From Desulfoarculaceae bacterium (GTDB lineage Bacteria > Desulfobacterota > Desulfobulbia > Desulfobulbales > Desulfocapsaceae): a stretch of 64,000 nt of DNA. The notes beneath the pieces are model-generated. The model was not told the DNA's origin. It did not search any database and saw only the letters and a list, made by a program, of their open reading frames with translations. Positions 1,241 to 64,000 of this stretch are shown here, piece by piece (within the stretch, counting starts at the first letter, position 1; each line of letters begins with the position of its first letter). The stretch is taken from the NCBI GenBank assembly GCA_019429465.1, contig JAHYIV010000004.1, positions 1 through 64,000 of the forward strand, given 5' to 3'. The translations under genes and the position numbers were made by a program.

Positions 1241-1267
1241 ATCACAGCCCCAGAAGCTGATAGATCC
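1241..1267. repeat. Native 3' end of cobQ (right direct repeat)
   Basis: These bases hold the cobQ stop codon (1242-1244) and its last codons. A copy with one mismatch lies at 381-407. The pair could be an attL/attR-like footprint, since integrations often target the ends of genes and rebuild them, but no integrase gene lies between the copies. Confidence 0.65.
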
Positions 1268-3953
1268 GGTTCATATCCACACTGTCGCGGACGGTGGCGG
1301 CCAGGCGGTCGAAGGCGGGTTCCAGGTCATAGGGGGCTGGGATGCCGGGCAGCGGCATAAGTCCCTGGCGCTGGCGCAACCGGTTGATGAACCAGCGGCG
1401 GAAGGGGTCGGAATCAAAGATCCCGTGCAGGTAGCTGCCCCAGATCCGGCCGGAGGCATCTACGGCGCCGCAGCCTGTGCCGTCGGTGAAGGCCAGCGTT
1501 GGCGGCAGGTCGGTCTGCGACCGGCCGTGATGGATCTCGTAGCCATGCACCGGCTGGCCGGACTCCTGATGAACGCCGGACTGCCGGACCAGTTTTTTGT
1601 CGGCGGCCAGCACGGTGGTTATGGGCAGCAGCCCGAGCCCGTCGATCGTGCCCTGGTCGGACTCGATGGCCAGCGGATCTTCGATGGACCGACCCAGCAT
1701 CTGATAGCCGCCGCAGACCCCGATGATCTCGCAGCCCTCGGCAGCCAGCCTCTGGATGGCGTCGGCCAGACCGCAGGATCTGAGGGCCGCCAGATCGTGG
1801 ATCACGTTCTTGGAACCGGGCAGGATGATGGCCTGCGGATGCCCCAGATCCTCCGCCCGCTCCACCACCCTGAGATACACATCGGGCTCGGCGGCCAGGG
1901 GCTCGATATCGGTGAAATTGGAGATATGGGGCAGGCTGATCACGGCAATCTCCACATGATCGCCCGTGGGCCGGCCACTATCAAACACCCCTTCCTTGAA
2001 CGAGACCGAATCCTCCTCGGGGATGCCCAGATTCTTCAGGTAGGGCACCACCCCCAGCACCTCGCGGCCGGTATGACCGGTCACATAGTCGTGGGCCTCC
2101 TGCAGCAAAGAGGCCTGACCCCGGAAACGGTTGACCACAAAACCCGCCACCAGCGCCCGTTCCCACTCATTCAGCACCTCCATGGTGCCGACAAAGGAGG
2201 CATAGACCCCGCCCCGGTCGATATCGCCCACCAGCAGCACCGGGGCCTGGGCGTAGCGGGCCATCCCCATGTTGACGATATCGTGGCGCTTGAGATTGAC
2301 CTCGCCCGGCGAGCCCGCACCTTCCAGCAGGATCACATCGTAGTCGGCGGCCAGACTGTCATAGGAGGCGTGGGCCGCCTGCATGGCCGTTTCCTTGTAG
2401 CGGAGATAGGTCATCACATCCATGTTGCCCACGGACCGGCCGTGGACAATGACCTGACTGCCGGTATCGGAGTTGGGCTTGAGGAGCACCGGATTCATGC
2501 GCACGTCCGGGTCAAGGCGGGCGGCCTGGGCCTGCACCACCTGGGCCCTCCCCATCTCCAGCCCGTCACGGGTGACAAAGGAGTTGAGCGACATGTTCTG
2601 GGCCTTGAACGGGGCCACCCGCACCCCGTCCTGGAGCAGGATCCGGCACAGGGCGGCGGTCAGCACCGACTTTCCGGCATTGGAGGAGGTGCCCTGAAAC
2701 ATCAGGGGGCGCGCCTTTTTAGAAGCCGTTAAGAAATGAGCATCGTTTTTCTGCTCATTTCTTTTACGGATCCTTATGCCGCTTGCAGGAAACAGCCAAT
2801 CTTTCCCGGCTGTTTCCTGCAAGCGTCGTCTAGCAGATACCATACAAGAATTCAGTTTCACGGCTTGCGGCTGCAGAATCTCGGTCAGGGCGTCAAGCAG
2901 CCGCCTGTTTTCGGCGGCCGTGCGTACCGCAATCCTGAAATAGCTCCCATCGAGCCCGGTATAATTGGAGCAGGTGCGGATCATGATCCGACGCTCCAGC
3001 AGTCTGGCGGCAAGGATTGTGGCATCGCCGCCATCCCTCAGGCGCAGCAGCAGGTAATTGGCGGCGGAATCGAAGAGCTGCAGGGCCGGAAAGCATTGCA
3101 GGTCGCGCGCCAGATCCGTCCGCAGCTCCCGGCAAAGGGTCCGGGACTGTTCTGCATACTCCTGATCGGCCAGGGCCCTAACACCCACGGCCTGGGCCAG
3201 GGTGTTGACCGTCCACGGCGGCAGATGCTCGCGCAGCAGGCGGGCAATGGGGAGCGGAAAGATGCCGAAGCCCAGACGCAGACCGGGGATGGCGTAGAAC
3301 TTTGTCAGGGAATGGAGGGTCATGATGTTGTCGGCGGCAAGGGCGACGCTTTGACCACCCTCGACAAATTCAAGAAAGGCCTCGTCCACCAGAAACAGGG
3401 TGGCAGGATGTCTCCTGGCCAGTTGCACGATCTGCTCCGGATCAACCAGCGCCCCGGTGGGATTATTGGGGGAGCCGATCACCACCAACTCGCCGCCCGT
3501 CAGCATGGGCGCTAGCTCATGGGGCTGGAGCGTGAATCCACGCTCGGCTAAGAGCAGGAAGGGACGGACCGTCATCCCGGCCAGTTCCATCACCTTGGTA
3601 TAATCAATATAGGAGGGAGAAGGGATGAGGGCCTGGGCACAGCCAAGGAGTTTCGGCAGCTGATAGAGCAGCTCGGTGGTGCCGTTGGCCACCACCACCG
3701 ATTCCGCGGGCACCTGACAGCGCTCGGCAATGGCCTGCACCAGCTTGCTTGCGTAGGGGTCGGGATAATGCACCAGCGAGGACACCTCGGAACTGATGAG
3801 CGGACGCAGCCACTCCGGCGGCCCCAGGGGATTGATATTGGCGCTGAAATCAAGCAGACTGGCCACATCTATGCCCATGTCCCGGGCCAGGCCGTGGACA
3901 TTGCCGCCATGGCCGGTGAGACCTGATTGCGAAGGTGGTATCTCGCTCTTCAT
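1242..3953 (-). CDS. cobD/cobQ: Fused threonine-phosphate decarboxylase / cobyric acid synthase
   Basis: 903 residues with two cobalamin enzymes in one frame. Residues 1-365 are a PLP fold type I enzyme like CobD, which makes the aminopropanol phosphate linker: HGGN near 15-18, SPNNPTG at 161-167, Asp190, and the PLP lysine in HSLTKF (Lys218). Residues 418-903 are CobQ, the glutamine-dependent amidase of adenosylcobyrinate: P-loop GTSSNAGKS at 421-429, and a class I glutaminase part with its nucleophile in GVCGGYQ (about Cys746) and the GYEIHHG histidines. The linker, residues about 373-411, is encoded by a palindromic repeat (2721-2836) and is basic and low in complexity. CobQ has no start codon or RBS of its own before the Met of LMFQG, so it depends on the fusion. 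The ATG overlaps the cobS stop (ATGA). Confidence 0.93.
2721..2836. repeat. Palindromic repeat, copy 1, inside cobD/cobQ
   Basis: Two consecutive hairpins: AGAAATGAGCA paired with TGCTCATTTCT (about 2732-2762), then a perfect 17-base stem (2781-2797 with 2808-2824) around a 10-base loop. The order, spacer (TCCTTATGCCGC) and flanks match the reverse complement of 6501-6613, while the stems differ by paired changes. Here it is read through in frame as the protein linker. The outer ends (GAAGCCGTTA, TACGGATCC) resemble those of the other copies. Confidence 0.85.
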
Positions 3954-6469: not shown

Positions 6470-6500
6470 TAGCCTCGTCCTCCCAAATCATATATTATCT

Positions 6501-6613
6501 GCCAGACGCCGCTCACAGAAACAGCCGGAAGGAATTGGCTGTTTCTGTAAAGCGGCATAAGGAGGCTTAACCGAATGAGCGGAAAAGCACACTCATTCGC
6601 TAACGCCTCCTAA
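6501..6613. repeat. Palindromic repeat, copy 2, at the cobC/cobU junction
   Basis: In reverse complement it matches copy 1 in layout and much of its sequence. Hairpins: ACAGAAACAGCC (6515-6526) with GGCTGTTTCTGT (6537-6548), inside GCCGC...GCGGC; and GAATGAG (6573-6579) with CTCATTC (6592-6598), inside GGAGGC (6561-6566)...GCCTCC (6605-6610). The copy overlaps the last seven codons, stop included, of cobC. Between the genes its folded RNA could affect cobU expression or mRNA decay. Confidence 0.85.
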
Positions 6614-7180
6614 GTTGAAACCGGTCAGCACCCCGCCCCCGCTATAGAGTTCAAGGGTGCTGTAATGACCCTTGGCCACCTGAAAGAGGAGATAATTTTG
6701 CCGGGACAGGCCAAGCAACCCGCAAATCAGAGAGCGGATCACTCCGCCATGGGCAACAAGAAGCATGGATTTGTCATCCGCGGTCAGCAGCCGATATTTG
6801 ACTGATTCCATCCGGTCGGTGAATGCGGCTGTCGTTTCGCCATCGGGGAAACAGAAATCATCATTCCCCTGCGCCCACTCCTGCACCAACTCCGGGTCCT
6901 GCGCCTCAATCTCGGCAAAGCTCTTCCCTTCCCAGCGCCCGAAATCAATCTCCCGCAGGTCAGGGTCAAGTTGCACCGGCAGACCCAACTCCAGCAGGTG
7001 GGCGGACTGGGTGCAGCGCAGCATGGGGCTTGCCAACAGTCCATCGATCTGCATCGCCGCCAGTCCTGGCCGCAAACCCTGAATCTGGGCGATGCCCTCC
7101 TCGGAGAGGGGGACATCGCTTGACCCGACATAGCGGCCAGAAAGGCCGGTCCGGCCATGACGGAGCAGAATCAGCCGCAT
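6593..7180 (-). CDS. cobC: Alpha-ribazole phosphatase, histidine phosphatase family
   Basis: 195 residues. Phosphoglycerate-mutase-like fold: the LLRHGRT motif places the phosphohistidine at His8, the second catalytic histidine is in LLVAHGGVIR, and ReiDFGrWEGK is the usual middle block. In this operon it most probably removes phosphate from alpha-ribazole phosphate or adenosylcobalamin phosphate. The start overlaps the cbiH end by 10 bases. The C-terminal tail LGGVSE and the stop codon fall inside the palindromic repeat at 6501-6613, so the natural end was probably replaced by the element. Confidence 0.88.
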   Translation of the reverse strand: MRLILLRHGRTGLSGRYVGSSDVPLSEEGIAQIQGLRPGLAAMQIDGLLASPMLRCTQSAHLLELGLPVQLDPDLREIDFGRWEGKSFAEIEAQDPELVQEWAQGNDDFCFPDGETTAAFTDRMESVKYRLLTADDKSMLLVAHGGVIRSLICGLLGLSRQNYLLFQVAKGHYSTLELYSGGGVLTGFNLGGVSE

Positions 7181-8963: not shown

Positions 8964-9047
8964 ACCTTTTTCCTGCTCAGCTGCTGATTCATGCCAAAAA
9001 CTTCCTTTTTGAGAAGGTCCATACCGGAAATGACGGCATCAAAACGC

Positions 9048-9207
9048 TAAGCCGCTGTAAAAAAATAACATGGCCATCTAAATGCCCGGAGCGGCATAAG
9101 GAGCCGGTCGCTCCTACGCCGTCCATGGCGATCGCGACACTGGGGCATCCCTGGCCTGCGTAACGAAATAGATATAAATGGCCATGTTATTTTGTAACGG
9201 CTCCTAA
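9048..9207. repeat. Palindromic repeat, copy 3, upstream of cbiG
   Basis: Begins TAAGCCGCTG and ends TAACGGCTCCTAA. AAAATAACATGGCCAT near the left end is complementary to ATGGCCATGTTATTTT near the right end, giving a 16-base outer stem. Inside are GCGGCATAAGGAGCCG, as in copy 2, and a GCGACACTGG..GCATCC..TG module that recurs in copy 5 at 60584. Copy 4 (10426-10534) is a shorter version in opposite orientation. The rest of 8964-9395 is AT-rich with no gene seen. Confidence 0.8.
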
Positions 9208-9395
9208 AAGTACTTCAGCCTTTTATTCAATTCAATTTTCAAGGCAAGTATTTAAGACGGTAACCCGTCATAAATCAACACTAAAGAGAACCGTAACAAA
9301 CAAATAGTTCTGCCCCAGCAGAACAAATCTCTTTTCATTAAAAAAAATCACAACAATATCAAATCAATATCATATTTTTTTTAAAACAAGATGAC

Positions 9396-10241: not shown

Positions 10242-10430
10242 CTTAGGGACTCGGAAAATAATGATTACCTGAATTGCAACTGGATTTGGGCCGGATTTGG
10301 CTGCACCGTTTGAGTAAAACCGCAGATGTAGTTTCGCTCCATCGAAGATTTTGCGATTGAGGTGCGGTCAAAGATGGGCCCGAAGACGGGAAGCCAAGAT
10401 TGTATATTAATATTTTCCTCGTCCCTTAGG
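10242..10430. mobile_element. Possible small element with inverted ends
   Basis: The left end (AGGGACTCGGAAAATAAT, from 10245) and the right end (reverse complement AGGGACGAGGAAAATATTAAT, to about 10427) are imperfect inverted repeats about 165 bases apart. No open frame with recognisable protein sequence lies between. It adjoins repeat copy 4 and shares its CTTAGG end. This looks like a decayed non-autonomous element, but no target duplication is clear. Together with copy 4 this accounts for most of the gap 10033-10565. Confidence 0.4.
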
Positions 10431-10534
10431 AGCCGTAACGAAATAACATGGCCATATAATGTCAATTTCGTTACGGCTTCTTATGTTGCTCCGGTTAGCG
10501 TAATGGTCATGTTATTTTTTAACAGCGGCTTAAC
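10426..10534. repeat. Palindromic repeat, copy 4
   Basis: In reverse complement it follows copy 3 closely: TAAGCCGCTG, then a stretch with AAAATAACATG.CCAT, then CCGGAGC..CATAAG.AGCCG, ending with TTATTTCGTTACGGCTCCTAA. It lacks the GCGACACTGG module. An outer stem of AAATAACATG with CATGTTATTT is kept. It ends about 30 bases before the PDT-PDH start and so may carry or affect its promoter. Confidence 0.8.
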
Positions 10535-10565
10535 ACTTTAAACACCCTCTCCAGCAGAAACAGCC

Positions 10566-13640: not shown

Positions 13641-13878
13641 CATTACCTGAAAGCTCAAAATTCTTCATTGGTAAAACATGCTCTCAGATAAGCGTGGAGT
13701 ACCAAACACAGCGGCACACAAATGAATAGTCACTCATAATATCGATTGACGATAAAACCAATTTTTTTGTAGGTTCTTTACTTACAAAAAAATGGCTTCC
13801 CCAGGGAAACTCCTGTTGTACGTAACACCTGGCACCCTCACTATGCTGGCTCCCCAGGGTGTTCCATGAAGCGTTCTC
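13641..13878. repeat. 238-bp tandem repeat, unit 1
   Basis: Aligns base for base with unit 2 at an offset of 238: ACCTGAAAGC, TTCTTCATT.GTAAAAC, CAGATAAG.GT.GAG, TGAATAGTCACTCA (13723-13736) and TTGAC..TGTAGGTT all recur. Palindromes are kept while their bases differ between units, for example TTCCCCAGGGAA here against ATTCCTCATGAGAAT there. No gene is seen in it. Confidence 0.8.
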
Positions 13879-14120
13879 AATCACCTGAAAGCGAAAAATT
13901 CTTCATTTGTAAAACCCGCTATCAGATAAGTGTAGAGCACCAATCACAGCAATATAAAAATGAATGATCATTCATAATATCCATTGACCACACAACCAAT
14001 CCAATGTAGGTTTATTTCTTACATAAATAGATTCCTCATGAGAATGCCTGTTAGCGCGTAACAATTAACACCGCCATAATACTGGATCTCCAGATAGCTC
14101 TATACCGCCTTCTAATTCAC
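13879..14120. repeat. 238-bp tandem repeat, unit 2, upstream of torD
   Basis: Second, diverged unit, ending about 25 bases before torD. It carries the perfect palindrome TGAATGATCATTCA at 13961-13974, at the site of the imperfect one in unit 1, and a CTGGATCTCCAG palindrome near 14083. It probably holds the promoter and control region of the torD operon; TTGACC (about 13984) is at a suitable place for a -35 box, but the -10 is poor (TAGGTT). Confidence 0.75.
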
Positions 14121-34666: not shown

Positions 34667-35872
34667 TCATTTCTGGTAAAATTCGGCTATTTTTTCAACA
34701 ACATACACCTGCATATCGGCAGTCAGTTCCGGGTAAATGGGCAGGGCAAGAGTCTCGGCGGCAGCCCTCTCGGCATGGGGAAAAGACAGGCGCTGAAAGT
34801 CAGCCCCCAGACATTTCTGCTGATGCAGGGCCAGGGGATAATAAATTTCACAGCCGATATCCTGGGAGTGTAGCCAGTCAATCAAGGCATCACGCCGACT
34901 GACCCGCAGGACATACTGATTATAGATGTGAAAATTTTCTCCAGAAGTGCTTGCGACGCCCTCAGTCTGCTCTTTCGGCAGATAAACAGCCTGAGGCAAA
35001 ACGAGAAAATCATTCTGGACAAGATCGGTTTGAGCAAAAAAAGTATTGTAACGGCCTGCATTCTCACGCCTGGCCCGATGCCACTTATCCAGATACGGCA
35101 GTTTGATCCGCAGCACTGCGGCCTGTATGGGATCAAGGCGAAAATTCCCCCCCACCTGGCCATGATAATATTTAGGAGATGCCCCATGATTACGCAAGAT
35201 CCGAATCTTATCGGCAAAAACACCATCATGGGTCACCACCATCCCGCCATCACCTATTCCCCCGAGATTTTTAGTGGGGAAGAACGAGAAACATCCGGCA
35301 AGTCCCATGGAGCCGGCCTTTTTCCATTGAACATTCAAGCCGCCACCCTCATCCTCCATCGGGCACTCAGCACCAATGGCCTGGGCCGCATCTTCAATAA
35401 CCGGCAGGTCGTAGTGGTTGGCCAGCTTCATGATAGCAGCCATATTGGCGCATTGTCCGTAGAGATGTACCGGCAGGATGGCCTTTATTTTTTTTTCATA
35501 ATCATGTGCCAGCACCTCTGCCATGGCGATGGGATCGATATTAAAAGAGACAGGGTCAATATCTGCAAAAACAGGGGTGGCCCCAAGCCGGAGCACAACC
35601 CCCATAGTGGCAAAAAAAGAATAAGGTGTGGTCAGAACCTGGTCACCAGGCCCAACGCCTAAGGCCATCAAAGAAACCAGCAGGGCATCGGTACCGCTGG
35701 AGACCCCTGCCCCGTTTTCCACCCCACAATAAGCGGCAACTTCCTGCTCCAAAGAGGTCACTTCAGGCCCGAGAATATATGTCGTTGAATCGATGACACT
35801 GGTTACAGCCTCCAGGATATCTTTCCGGAGGTAACTCAATTGTTGTTTGAGGTCAAGCAAAGGTACTTTCAT
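34667..35872 (-). CDS. DegT/DnrJ/EryC1/StrS sugar aminotransferase
   Basis: 401 residues. PLP-dependent enzyme that aminates keto-sugar nucleotides for surface glycans. Motifs: SGTDALLVSLMALGVGPGDQV, IEDAAQAIGA (Asp161 binds PLP nitrogen), FFPTKNLGGIGDGG with the PLP lysine Lys201, and GGNFRLDPIQAAVL. An extra run of about 15 residues (near 170-188) sits between the Asp and Lys motifs compared with the plain family pattern. It is 75 bases upstream of the TPR/barrel gene on the same strand, so the two may serve the same glycan. Confidence 0.9.
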   Translation of the reverse strand: MKVPLLDLKQQLSYLRKDILEAVTSVIDSTTYILGPEVTSLEQEVAAYCGVENGAGVSSGTDALLVSLMALGVGPGDQVLTTPYSFFATMGVVLRLGATPVFADIDPVSFNIDPIAMAEVLAHDYEKKIKAILPVHLYGQCANMAAIMKLANHYDLPVIEDAAQAIGAECPMEDEGGGLNVQWKKAGSMGLAGCFSFFPTKNLGGIGDGGMVVTHDGVFADKIRILRNHGASPKYYHGQVGGNFRLDPIQAAVLRIKLPYLDKWHRARRENAGRYNTFFAQTDLVQNDFLVLPQAVYLPKEQTEGVASTSGENFHIYNQYVLRVSRRDALIDWLHSQDIGCEIYYPLALHQQKCLGADFQRLSFPHAERAAAETLALPIYPELTADMQVYVVEKIAEFYQK

Positions 35873-49119: not shown

Positions 49120-50121
49120 TTATTCCTCTTTCGGCTTATAGCCAACAACATCCAGCAACTGGGCGCCATCAAGTAAGGCGCCGTCCAACCTGGCACCGGT
49201 CAAATCTGCCCCTGACAGATTCGCCTTATAGAGATCCGCTCTCCGCAGATCCGTATTTCTGAGATCAACCCGCACCAGCAGAGCCCCTTTCAGATTCGCC
49301 TTCTCCAGATCAGCCCCCCGGAGGTTGCTGCCGGTCAGATCAGCGCTTTCAAGATCAGCACCACCCAGATCCTTACCGGCCAGATCTACCCCGACGAGAC
49401 TGCAGCCATAGCAGCGCTTGGTCTCCAGCAAACGCTCCCTGTTTTTTTCTGCTTCAGCCGCAGGATCCGGAGTATCTCCTGAGCCCATGGTACCAGCCGT
49501 TCCATGCCCCTGTGCCTGATTCTCTTCCTGAACGCCATTCTCTGTTTTTGCAATCACCGTTGCTCGGCCACCGCTGTCACCTAAGCCGAACACTCCCTTC
49601 AGGCTCTGCAGGGTCTTATCAAAAAATCCTGGCTCTTGAGACGGGGCGGGAAGAGCGCTTTCAGTAACAATATTCCGGCCGGGAACAGTAACCGAGACCG
49701 ACTCCTCCGATGGTTGACTCAAGGTGACAGCATCATCGAATTGAGCACCGACAAGATAAGCCCCTGCAAAGGTCGCACCTCTCAGATCCGCGCCCCGCAG
49801 GTCAGCCTCTGCCAGATCAGAACCGCCAAGATCGGCATCCCTCAGATCCACATTCCGCAGGTTGGCCTTAGCGAGAGTAGCAAGACGCAATCTCACCTTG
49901 GAAAGGTTAGCACCTTCCAGATTGGCGCCTGTCAAATTTACCCTGTCAAGATCAACACCAGAAAGATCACATCCGGGACAACTGTTGGTTTCTATAAGTT
50001 GTTTCCTGTTATCCAGCAAGGTTCCCTGATCAGTATCATGCCCGGCCAAGGCAAAGCTATTCCCATTTAATGCCAAAACGCTAAAAAGAACAACTGGGAC
50101 AATCCTCTTTACAACACGCAT
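49120..50121 (-). CDS. Secreted protein with two pentapeptide-repeat domains
   Basis: 333 residues from ATG 50121, behind AGGTGAAG; the frame is open 28 codons earlier. Signal peptide 1-25 (VVLFSVLALNGNSFA). Two copies of one module: a helix with a Cys pair (LIETNSCPGCDLSGVDL and LLETKRCYGCSLVGVDL) leading into A(D/N)LxxADL-type pentapeptide repeats (about 45-130 and 255-325), joined by a low-complexity linker. Pentapeptide repeats form a right-handed square helix, here in the periplasm. The Cys pair at each cap may bond or bind a metal. Function unknown. Confidence 0.85.
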   Translation of the reverse strand: MRVVKRIVPVVLFSVLALNGNSFALAGHDTDQGTLLDNRKQLIETNSCPGCDLSGVDLDRVNLTGANLEGANLSKVRLRLATLAKANLRNVDLRDADLGGSDLAEADLRGADLRGATFAGAYLVGAQFDDAVTLSQPSEESVSVTVPGRNIVTESALPAPSQEPGFFDKTLQSLKGVFGLGDSGGRATVIAKTENGVQEENQAQGHGTAGTMGSGDTPDPAAEAEKNRERLLETKRCYGCSLVGVDLAGKDLGGADLESADLTGSNLRGADLEKANLKGALLVRVDLRNTDLRRADLYKANLSGADLTGARLDGALLDGAQLLDVVGYKPKEE

Positions 50122-62405: not shown

Positions 62406-64000
62406 TCAGGGTAATGCTGGTCGGATCCTCTTGCGCCGCTGATCAGAATTCTCCTCCACTTTGTCTTCAGCAGCCTGTTTTACTGCCTCCGCTTCAGCGG
62501 CCTGCTGTTGTTGCTGAAGACGCTTCAACTCCTCTTCCTTATCCACCACCGGTTGCCCAATAACAGGAACCAGGGCAGCAGGTACTGGAACTGGTGTCAG
62601 TTGCGGCCTTACAGGTACAGACCTAATCGAGTCCCGACCGTTACCCCTGTTGTTCGTCGGCCTTTCTCTCAATTGTCCTGGTGAACCCTGCTCTTCCTGC
62701 ACCTGCTGCCGGCCGCGACTGGCCGGCGCCGCTTCTTGTTCCTCCCTCAAGGCCGGTTGCTCCTTGGCAGGGACCGGCACAACAGGTACTGGCGCTGGTG
62801 TCAGTTGCGGCCTTACAGGTACAGACCTGATCGAGTCCCGACCGTTACCCCTGTTGTTCGTCGGCCTTTCTCTCAATTGTCCTGGTGAACCCTGCTCTTC
62901 CTGCACCTGCTGCCGACCGCCAGGCTCAGCTGTTCTTCGTGACTCACCCACGGCTTCAGGATTTATCCTGATTGCTGGAAACAATGATCGTGGTGCCTCC
63001 GTTGGCCTAAAAACCGAACGGTCACGCTCTCTAACAATACGTCTTTCTCCATTCACTGTCCGTTCCTGGATTGAGCGAGGCGGCTTGTGTTCCCTGGGAA
63101 TCTCTCTGACAATCGGCATCATGGTCGTTCGTTCCGGCTCTATCCTGGGCCGACCAATACTTACCCGCTCCCGTAAGAATGGATTTTCCCTCTGTCCAAT
63201 ATCCCGACGTTGGCCTCCCAGAAAGGTATCCCGGTGCACAACGGTTACCGCATCACGCACATGGACATTCCGATAATTTCTTCCCGGCACCACTATGGAG
63301 ATATTAATAGTTAGAATATTAATACTATGGGGTCCATAATAGCCATGACCGTAATAAATTTCGGCAGGTGCGAGAGGCACCCAGGCAATAGTATCTGCTG
63401 TGGCCACCCAGCTGACATAACCAGGTCCCCAATAGACTTCATTGCGCGGCGGCGGTACCCAGCACCAGCCATGAGAAGAGATATAAGACCATCGACCGTA
63501 ATGATACGGCGCCCATCCCCAAGGCTCTTGTGCGATCCAGACATAATCGTCACCGACCCACACCCACCGGCCATAACGATAAGGAGCCCAATCAACAGAT
63601 ATATGGGTGGTCGGAGTCCAGACATAGCCATACTCACTGGTCTGAACCCACCTGCCATTCCTGCTCAAATCCCGTCCATATCCTGTCAACTCTGGCGGCA
63701 GATACTGCTCGCTGTCCTCTGCATCGCTCAGCGAATCATCCCACTGCCTGTTCCATCTCTCCCAGTCGCTGGGGGGGCCCAAGGTCATAAGTGAGGGTAA
63801 GCCATCGTCCATAGAGAGCATCTTGCCGGCTGCGACCCGGACTTCTCCACTCCTGTTTTCTGCGTACACAGCGCCCCGAAAGACGGAAATTTCGGTATAC
63901 CCATTATCACCAATGGCGACGTTGAGAGTCGAACTGTCATACATCCTGATTGAGGAAACCGGGGTGTCTACCTGAATCATGGAATCCATCTCTTGCTTGA
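62406..64000 (-). CDS. DUF6600-like secreted protein (5' end outside window)
   Basis: At least 530 residues; the frame is open to the window edge and the first visible part (QVDTPVSSIRMY..VFRGAVYAENRSGEVRVAAGKML) is the inside of a FecR-like domain, so the true start and probable signal lie outside. Then comes a Trp/Tyr/Gly-rich region (about 110-230) with GYVWTP, DWAPYRYGRWVWV, PWGWAPYHYGRWSY, as in DUF6600 proteins. The end is Pro/Gln/Arg-rich with a 68-residue-period duplication and a Q-run. Probably a cell-envelope protein. Confidence 0.72.
   Translation of the reverse strand, partial: KQEMDSMIQVDTPVSSIRMYDSSTLNVAIGDNGYTEISVFRGAVYAENRSGEVRVAAGKMLSMDDGLPSLMTLGPPSDWERWNRQWDDSLSDAEDSEQYLPPELTGYGRDLSRNGRWVQTSEYGYVWTPTTHISVDWAPYRYGRWVWVGDDYVWIAQEPWGWAPYHYGRWSYISSHGWCWVPPPRNEVYWGPGYVSWVATADTIAWVPLAPAEIYYGHGYYGPHSINILTINISIVVPGRNYRNVHVRDAVTVVHRDTFLGGQRRDIGQRENPFLRERVSIGRPRIEPERTTMMPIVREIPREHKPPRSIQERTVNGERRIVRERDRSVFRPTEAPRSLFPAIRINPEAVGESRRTAEPGGRQQVQEEQGSPGQLRERPTNNRGNGRDSIRSVPVRPQLTPAPVPVVPVPAKEQPALREEQEAAPASRGRQQVQEEQGSPGQLRERPTNNRGNGRDSIRSVPVRPQLTPVPVPAALVPVIGQPVVDKEEELKRLQQQQQAAEAEAVKQAAEDKVEENSDQRRKRIRPALP
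62580..62917. repeat. Direct repeat within the DUF6600-like gene
   Basis: About 133 bases at 62580-62713 recur nearly unchanged at 62784-62917, period 204 bases (68 codons). The copies encode the same Q/R/P-rich segment (start RQQVQEEQGSPG). High identity points to a recent in-frame duplication; copy number may vary between strains. Confidence 0.85.

Follow-up and report, generated by a model that had tools for sequence, protein, structure and literature searches.

Probable insertion of a dispersed two-hairpin repeat into the linker of an older CobD-CobQ fusion in a Desulfocapsaceae genome

In the window, i.e. the whole stretch of 64,000 nucleotides analyzed here from contig JAHYIV010000004.1 of an uncultured bacterium of the Desulfocapsaceae, the genes for threonine-phosphate decarboxylase (CobD) and cobyric acid synthase (CobQ) share one reading frame, and the junction between them is formed by a palindromic repeat (Table 1). 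This raises the question whether the repeat created the fusion or entered a fusion that was already present, and what became of the protein. The first-pass annotation, which was made from the sequence alone, had offered both histories, with the element either landing at the junction and fusing two genes or being tolerated inside an existing fusion. It is considered highly probable that the fusion is old and that a copy of a repeat, here termed family A, was inserted into its short linker, is read through as 39 residues and left both enzymes alone.

Table 1. Coordinates of the fusion frame, its domains and the family A copies in the window.
Feature	Position	Strand	Basis
cobD-cobQ fusion ORF, 903 aa	1242..3953	-	ORF listing and domain profiles
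CobD (threonine-phosphate decarboxylase) part, residues 15-356	2886..3911	-	NCBIfam TIGR01140
CobQ (cobyric acid synthase) part, residues 416-901	1251..2708	-	NCBIfam NF001989
Family A (two-hairpin repeat) copy, in frame, residues 372-412	2719..2839	-	R1, 125.9 bits
Hairpin 1 of the linker copy	2778..2827	-	A1 columns 13-63, hand-converted; pair counts
Hairpin 2 of the linker copy	2721..2774	-	A1 columns 67-127, hand-converted; pair counts
Second copy of family A in the window, between cobU and cobC	6496..6613	+	R1, 107.8 bits

The profile search with NCBIfam assigned 315.6 bits to the CobD part (curated cut-off 290.55) and 628.9 bits to the CobQ part (curated cut-off 273), so that both families lie above their curated cut-offs in a single frame, as expected of a CobD-CobQ fusion enzyme, and no stop codon lies between the two halves. 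Six neighboring frames match B12 families as well, of which cobS, cobT, cobU and cobJ exceed their cut-offs, while cobC (157 bits vs. 162.9) and cbiG (249.9 vs. 326) fall below them. In the home assembly (2.84 Mb, 72 contigs) the only CobQ match of the protein search is the one in the fusion frame, which is also the only close match to CobD; a more distant CobD-like frame, at 29% identity, probably represents HisC. Three-point estimates of dN/dS on the home branch amount to 0.11-0.15 for CobD and 0.10-0.14 for CobQ, compared to 0.21-0.35 and 0.07-0.11 on the branch of G015, a congener without the insert. Two of the three estimates put the home value for CobQ at about twice that of G015, and the third puts it slightly below. 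These values indicate that both halves are under purifying selection. Due to the low dN/dS, the sole CobQ match and the neighboring B12 families, the fused and insert-bearing protein is most likely functional, and it would be produced as a single long polypeptide.

The repeat was delimited with R1, a covariance model built from 27 family A copies, from which copies with odd 3′ ends were left out. The earlier placement of the linker repeat at 2721-2836 proved right to within a few bases. The copy described at 6501-6613 is real too; it is not wholly outside genes, since it overlaps the 3′ end of the cobC ORF (6593-7180) with its last codons and stop codon. A family A unit comprises about 120 nt (about 121 nt in the linker copy) with stems of 14 and 18 pairs. 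Paired stem changes between the two copies had been noticed before and were borne out, as 22 of the 32 consensus pairs are changed on both sides with pairing kept. In the family A alignment, 124 cells are changed on both sides, whereas 500 shuffles gave 37.6 on average, and 94.4% of the cells are paired vs. 81.6% in the shuffles; shifting the partner by one to three columns lowers pairing to 36.0-49.2%. These compensatory changes support the hairpin stems. The sense frame used at cobDQ is free of stop codons in only three of the 55 copies that reach 90 bits, the linker copy included. When all sense frames are considered, five of the 55 have one without a stop codon; on the antisense side, one frame is open in 33 of the copies and another in 32.

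Family A is dispersed throughout the genome. A 151-base query, searched against the DNA of the home genome, gave 55 places at E ≤ 0.001, itself included; the best other match of the linker repeat is 85% identical (E 1.2e-33), well beyond chance. With R1, at least 142 matches were obtained at E ≤ 0.01 (best 150 of 1485 candidates scored), and at least 55 copies reach 90 bits or more. The R1 search of relatives took in 16 congeners and 38 genomes outside the genus, with G036, G056 and G057 not included. Each of the 16 congeners holds at least 9-65 matches at E ≤ 1e-6 (best 65 or fewer candidates per genome scored). Outside the genus, matches were found in 8 of the 38 genomes, with at least 1-11 each; these are weak (best E 2.2e-11).

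Sites orthologous between the home genome and G015, in which eight family A copies above 117 bits were found in 394,521 bases, were read by hand. For this, home copies that reach 90 bits and fall within the searched G015 stretches were considered, arrays were counted once and sites without an R1 match were taken as empty. Four of 11 sites are filled and seven are empty. Family A therefore shares with miniature inverted-repeat transposable elements (MITEs) that it is short, dispersed, without a gene of its own and present or absent at orthologous sites. In nine aligned site pairs, one of them filled in both genomes, no target-site duplication or exact ends were found, and at cobDQ the ends and a possible duplication could not be fixed, since the nearest empty allele is too different around the junction. 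A RAYT transposase was considered as the mobilizer of family A and was not found in that role at the Y1 loci examined: Y1 transposase matches occur in all 17 genomes of the genus, and no R1 match (E ≤ 0.01) was obtained in 28 congener loci, while five home loci contained one R1 fragment of 10.7 bits; many further Y1 matches lie outside this sample. The insertion presumably arose by transposition. Head-to-tail arrays of family A with a spacing of about 118-126 nt were seen in the home genome at C4:77492-77987, C29:7144-7506, C5:27283-27638 and C48:109867-110224, and some inner copies of such arrays have altered 3′ ends. At a further locus (L021, C54, around 35300-35737), a full copy follows several units of about 30 nt that are arranged in tandem and resemble the 5′ end of family A.

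The genome was further searched for other in-frame copies, as the first-pass annotation had suggested. Of 142 R1 rows, 101 were examined; weaker rows were dropped, some of which are opposite-strand echoes of the palindrome. Among these 101 home copies, only the one in cobDQ could be shown to lie in frame inside a gene, flanked by recognized domains. Family A copies are crossed by 16 distinct long frames of the home genome, on all of which Pfam was run. Six of the other 15 have a domain (class II tRNA synthetase, decarboxylase, acetyl-CoA hydrolase, PfkB, haloacid dehalogenase-like and peptidase A24). Because this domain always follows the repeat, the repeat probably lies upstream of the start in these six frames. 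The remaining nine are without a Pfam match, so some of these may be genes that contain a repeat but no known domain. In 43 congener copies (35 from G015 and eight from G008), three long frames cross the repeat, one with an Exo_endo_phos domain after it and two without a Pfam match. Family A is thus not gene-seeking, as nearly all examined copies lie outside genes or at their ends.

The age of the fusion was assessed by a protein search of 58 genomes, i.e. the home genome and 57 relatives, the nearest named ones being mostly metagenome assemblies of Desulfobulbaceae and Desulfocapsaceae. A match to the CobQ half was found in 47 genomes, and in 35 of these, including the home genome, one open frame of more than 800 codons spans CobD and CobQ (G045 was counted as fused despite a gap in its CobQ match). 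All 13 genus genomes with a CobQ match carry the fusion, and so do 14 of the 17 in the rest of the family. Four genus genomes with an estimated completeness of 55-76% (G001, G007, G011 and G013) have no CobQ match. CobD and CobQ are not in one frame in 12 of the 47 genomes, of which at least three (G018, G030 and G035) appear to have truncated or broken frames and not separate genes. The linkers were screened for family A with R1 (E ≤ 0.1) and for two other kinds of repeat described below, family B and D/C, with blastn (E ≤ 0.001). Family A was detected in none of the other 12 fusion loci of the genus, and eight of the 13 linkers (G002, G004, G006, G010, G012, G014, G015 and G016) are free of all these repeats. 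Six of these insert-free linkers are exactly 39 codons shorter than that of the home genome, which corresponds to a net gain of 39 codons (117 nt) at home; those of G006 and G016 are 35 codons shorter. The comparison indicates that the CobD-CobQ fusion is older than the family A insert.

The alignment of relatives' cobD and cobQ loci, proposed earlier as a check for fusion by insertion, thus yielded fused genes without family A in the genus instead of separate genes. A repeat that landed between two genes and removed the cobD stop codon and the cobQ start codon would explain why it sits between two domains, and in parts of the order cobD and cobQ are indeed not one frame. Given the fusions without family A in the congeners and the fused state in most of the family, this origin is rejected and regarded as extremely improbable. 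The first-pass annotation had named relatives with the same linker and no repeat elsewhere in their genomes as evidence against its reading. Instead, the 12 other fusions of the genus lack the insert and the repeat occurs elsewhere in all 16 congeners. A very unlikely explanation is an assembly artefact that misplaced the repeat inside cobDQ. The genome is a 72-contig assembly; the frame is intact, the congeners show the same type of event with other repeats, and a repeat of 120 nt is shorter than common sequencing reads.

The first-pass annotation had stated that CobQ lacks a start codon and a ribosome binding site of its own. This holds only in part, as the conserved M418 is encoded by an ATG in this frame that is preceded by AAAAAGG, and two further in-frame codons, ATG371 and TTG378, lie beside or within the repeat. 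Separate initiation of CobQ at one of these codons, with the hairpin DNA as an intercistronic spacer, is therefore compatible with the sequence, and five CobQ ORFs at the order level that do not share a frame with CobD keep the conserved methionine beside upstream start codons. This alternative is nevertheless improbable, since M418 is part of the strand with which the predicted CobQ structure begins (residues 415-421) and the single frame, uninterrupted by stop codons, is kept in the 35 fused genomes, including those whose linkers contain other repeats. The possibility that the insert was kept because it is useful, e.g. as a longer tether or as an mRNA structure that regulates B12 synthesis, is improbable as well. 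It is favored by the long repeat-derived linkers in five of the 13 genus fusions and by the linker copy, which still scores 125.9 bits with R1; it is opposed by the variation of the inserts in sequence and length, by the eight fusions that do without and by the position of nearly all examined copies outside genes or at their ends.

The favored history, insertion into an existing fusion, would have started from a two-enzyme CobD-CobQ protein with a short linker. In the home lineage, a dispersed, non-autonomous family A element of about 120 nt would have entered this linker. As the copy was by chance free of stop codons in the needed frame and the net gain of 117 nt kept that frame, it would be read through as 39 extra residues with the folded enzymes untouched, and the insert would be neutral. 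The earlier suggestion that the element was tolerated inside an existing fusion is supported in this respect by the predicted lack of structure in the linker, by purifying selection on both halves and by four congeners with other repeats in their linkers.

The structure of the fusion was predicted with AlphaFold2 from 15 sequences (mean pLDDT 69.2, pTM 0.44). CobD ends in a helix (residues 346-360), CobQ begins with the strand mentioned above, and residues 363-412 between them are below 50 pLDDT. Stretches below 50 pLDDT are found inside CobQ too (449-520 and others), therefore the low value of the linker alone is not proof of disorder, and the prediction of an unstructured linker is a weak one.

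Besides the home genome with family A, the five genus fusions with linker inserts comprise G008, G003, G005 and G009. The linkers of the first three of these contain a GC-rich repeat, termed family B, that is read as ...GGGLGWGG...HPPPNPLPSREGE or a variant thereof. Family B is dispersed, with 12 matches in G008 and 14 each in G003 and G005, linker copies included, seven in G015, two each in G009 and G004 and none in the home genome. The linker of G009 consists of a 28-nt B-like stretch followed by a unit of the CATGGACGG type (C, the core of family D). As a query, this linker matches 44 places in the home genome and 30 in G009, mostly over the C unit. At this locus (L041:1306-1507), the family D core unit is joined to, and perhaps nested in, the B-like stretch with the frame kept. 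In-frame units of 54 nt (18 residues) were also observed inside CobD near residue 200, one in G003 (L033) and two in G009 (L041); these units fall between predicted strands and show an 83% match to the family D core. A six-residue insert at the same place in G005 may be a remnant.

The protein alignment retained 32 of 33 rows (L052 was lost to the motif filter), and 18 of these (13 from the genus and five from the family) were used for a CobD-CobQ tree. The four carriers of other linker repeats do not form one clade on this tree, in which several forks are weak; one gain with losses, several gains and gene exchange are therefore all compatible with the distribution. Taken together, sister species hold filled, empty and differently filled alleles of the same linker, and the order of events can be read from them, fusion first and insertion later. 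The linker could thus serve as a natural test bed for the tolerance of a fused enzyme towards foreign sequence.

Family D itself was observed in the window at 9041-9210 (about 160 nt), with related stretches around 10425-10539. Its ends are imperfectly inverted (TAAGCCGC.../...CGGCTCCTAA) and it is more uniform than family A, with which it shares end modules. At least 40 places were found in the home genome including itself (best 40 of 177 candidates scored), and the others are 89-98% identical. The Rfam motif TwoAYGGAY gave a full-length match in six of ten loci scanned, at 29.9-36.5 bits below the gathering score of 43. Rfam matches in L033, L041, L072 and L074 were all below the gathering score and were taken as chance. 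It is conceivable, if doubtful, that the genus harbors one superfamily of mobile palindromes, which would comprise family A, family D and the D-core units in the CobD of two congeners, and would include or be kin to the TwoAYGGAY "RNA", and that different repeat families landed repeatedly in the CobD-CobQ linker. If this were true, what is catalogued as an RNA motif would in fact be a mobile palindrome of DNA with repeated entry into proteins. Further repeats of the window are two-copy direct repeats at 62530-62920 (187 nt, 88%) and 13642-14000 (121 nt, 81%) and imperfect 41-nt repeats at 49208-49800, the other strand of which may encode a pentapeptide-repeat-like protein.

The likeness to the Rickettsia palindromic elements (RPEs) that was pointed out in the first-pass annotation is apt as an analogy, as the repeat lies in frame between folded parts; it does not extend to membership, as only one of the 101 copies was shown to lie in frame inside a gene. 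RPEs are described as elements of 100-150 bp that occur in ORFs without breaking the frame and at solvent-exposed places, and different RPE groups can neighbor each other in one gene (PMC3767692). Family A, with its many copies of about 121 nt and two hairpins, agrees with this description in size and palindromic structure, and the cobDQ locus agrees in the kept frame, the exposed part of the protein and the different repeat groups in one gene. The genic share differs, since nearly half of the RPEs of R. conorii are located within ORFs according to a review (PMC10969869). The host belongs to another phylum, and the likeness considered here is one of features.

REP elements of the GTAG and CGTC types (PMC3733652, PMC8266576) are likewise dispersed hairpins. 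They occur inside ORFs of many bacteria, flexible linkers and loops have been proposed as neutral sites, and some RPEs are reported to be CGTC-tagged REPs (PMC3733652); the CGTC type is reported to lack a linked transposase. REP units measure 20-40 bp with stems of 5-13 or 8-9 bp, whereas family A has about 120 nt and the longer stems given above. GTAG/CTAC is absent from the family A consensus and is found somewhere in six of the 27 copies. On the other strand just outside hairpin 1, CGTC is present in 13 and CGCC in eight of the 27 copies. In CGTC REPs the tag is placed at one end of an 8-9 bp stem (PMC3733652), whereas the stems of family A are longer and the letters vary, and this likeness is suggestive only. 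ERIC/RU elements (PMC2759123) and MITEs (PMC10969869) resemble family A in their size of about 100-170 bp, in lacking a gene of their own and in being in frame with some ORFs. The in-frame fusions of ERIC/RU are described mostly at protein ends (PMC2759123), whereas the cobDQ insert lies between two enzyme domains.

Among the papers searched, none joins cobyric acid synthase, threonine-phosphate decarboxylase and fusion, and none treats a miniature inverted repeat in Desulfobulbaceae; no wider claim of absence is made. Because of the RPE and REP precedents of in-frame palindromes in ORFs, the kind of event is already known from Rickettsia and some other bacteria, while no earlier report was found for this repeat family, host group and gene. 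The cobDQ locus adds a clean case from outside Rickettsia, in which dispersed hairpin DNA became part of a conserved metabolic enzyme, and it illustrates how proteins can gain segments from DNA of a mobile type.
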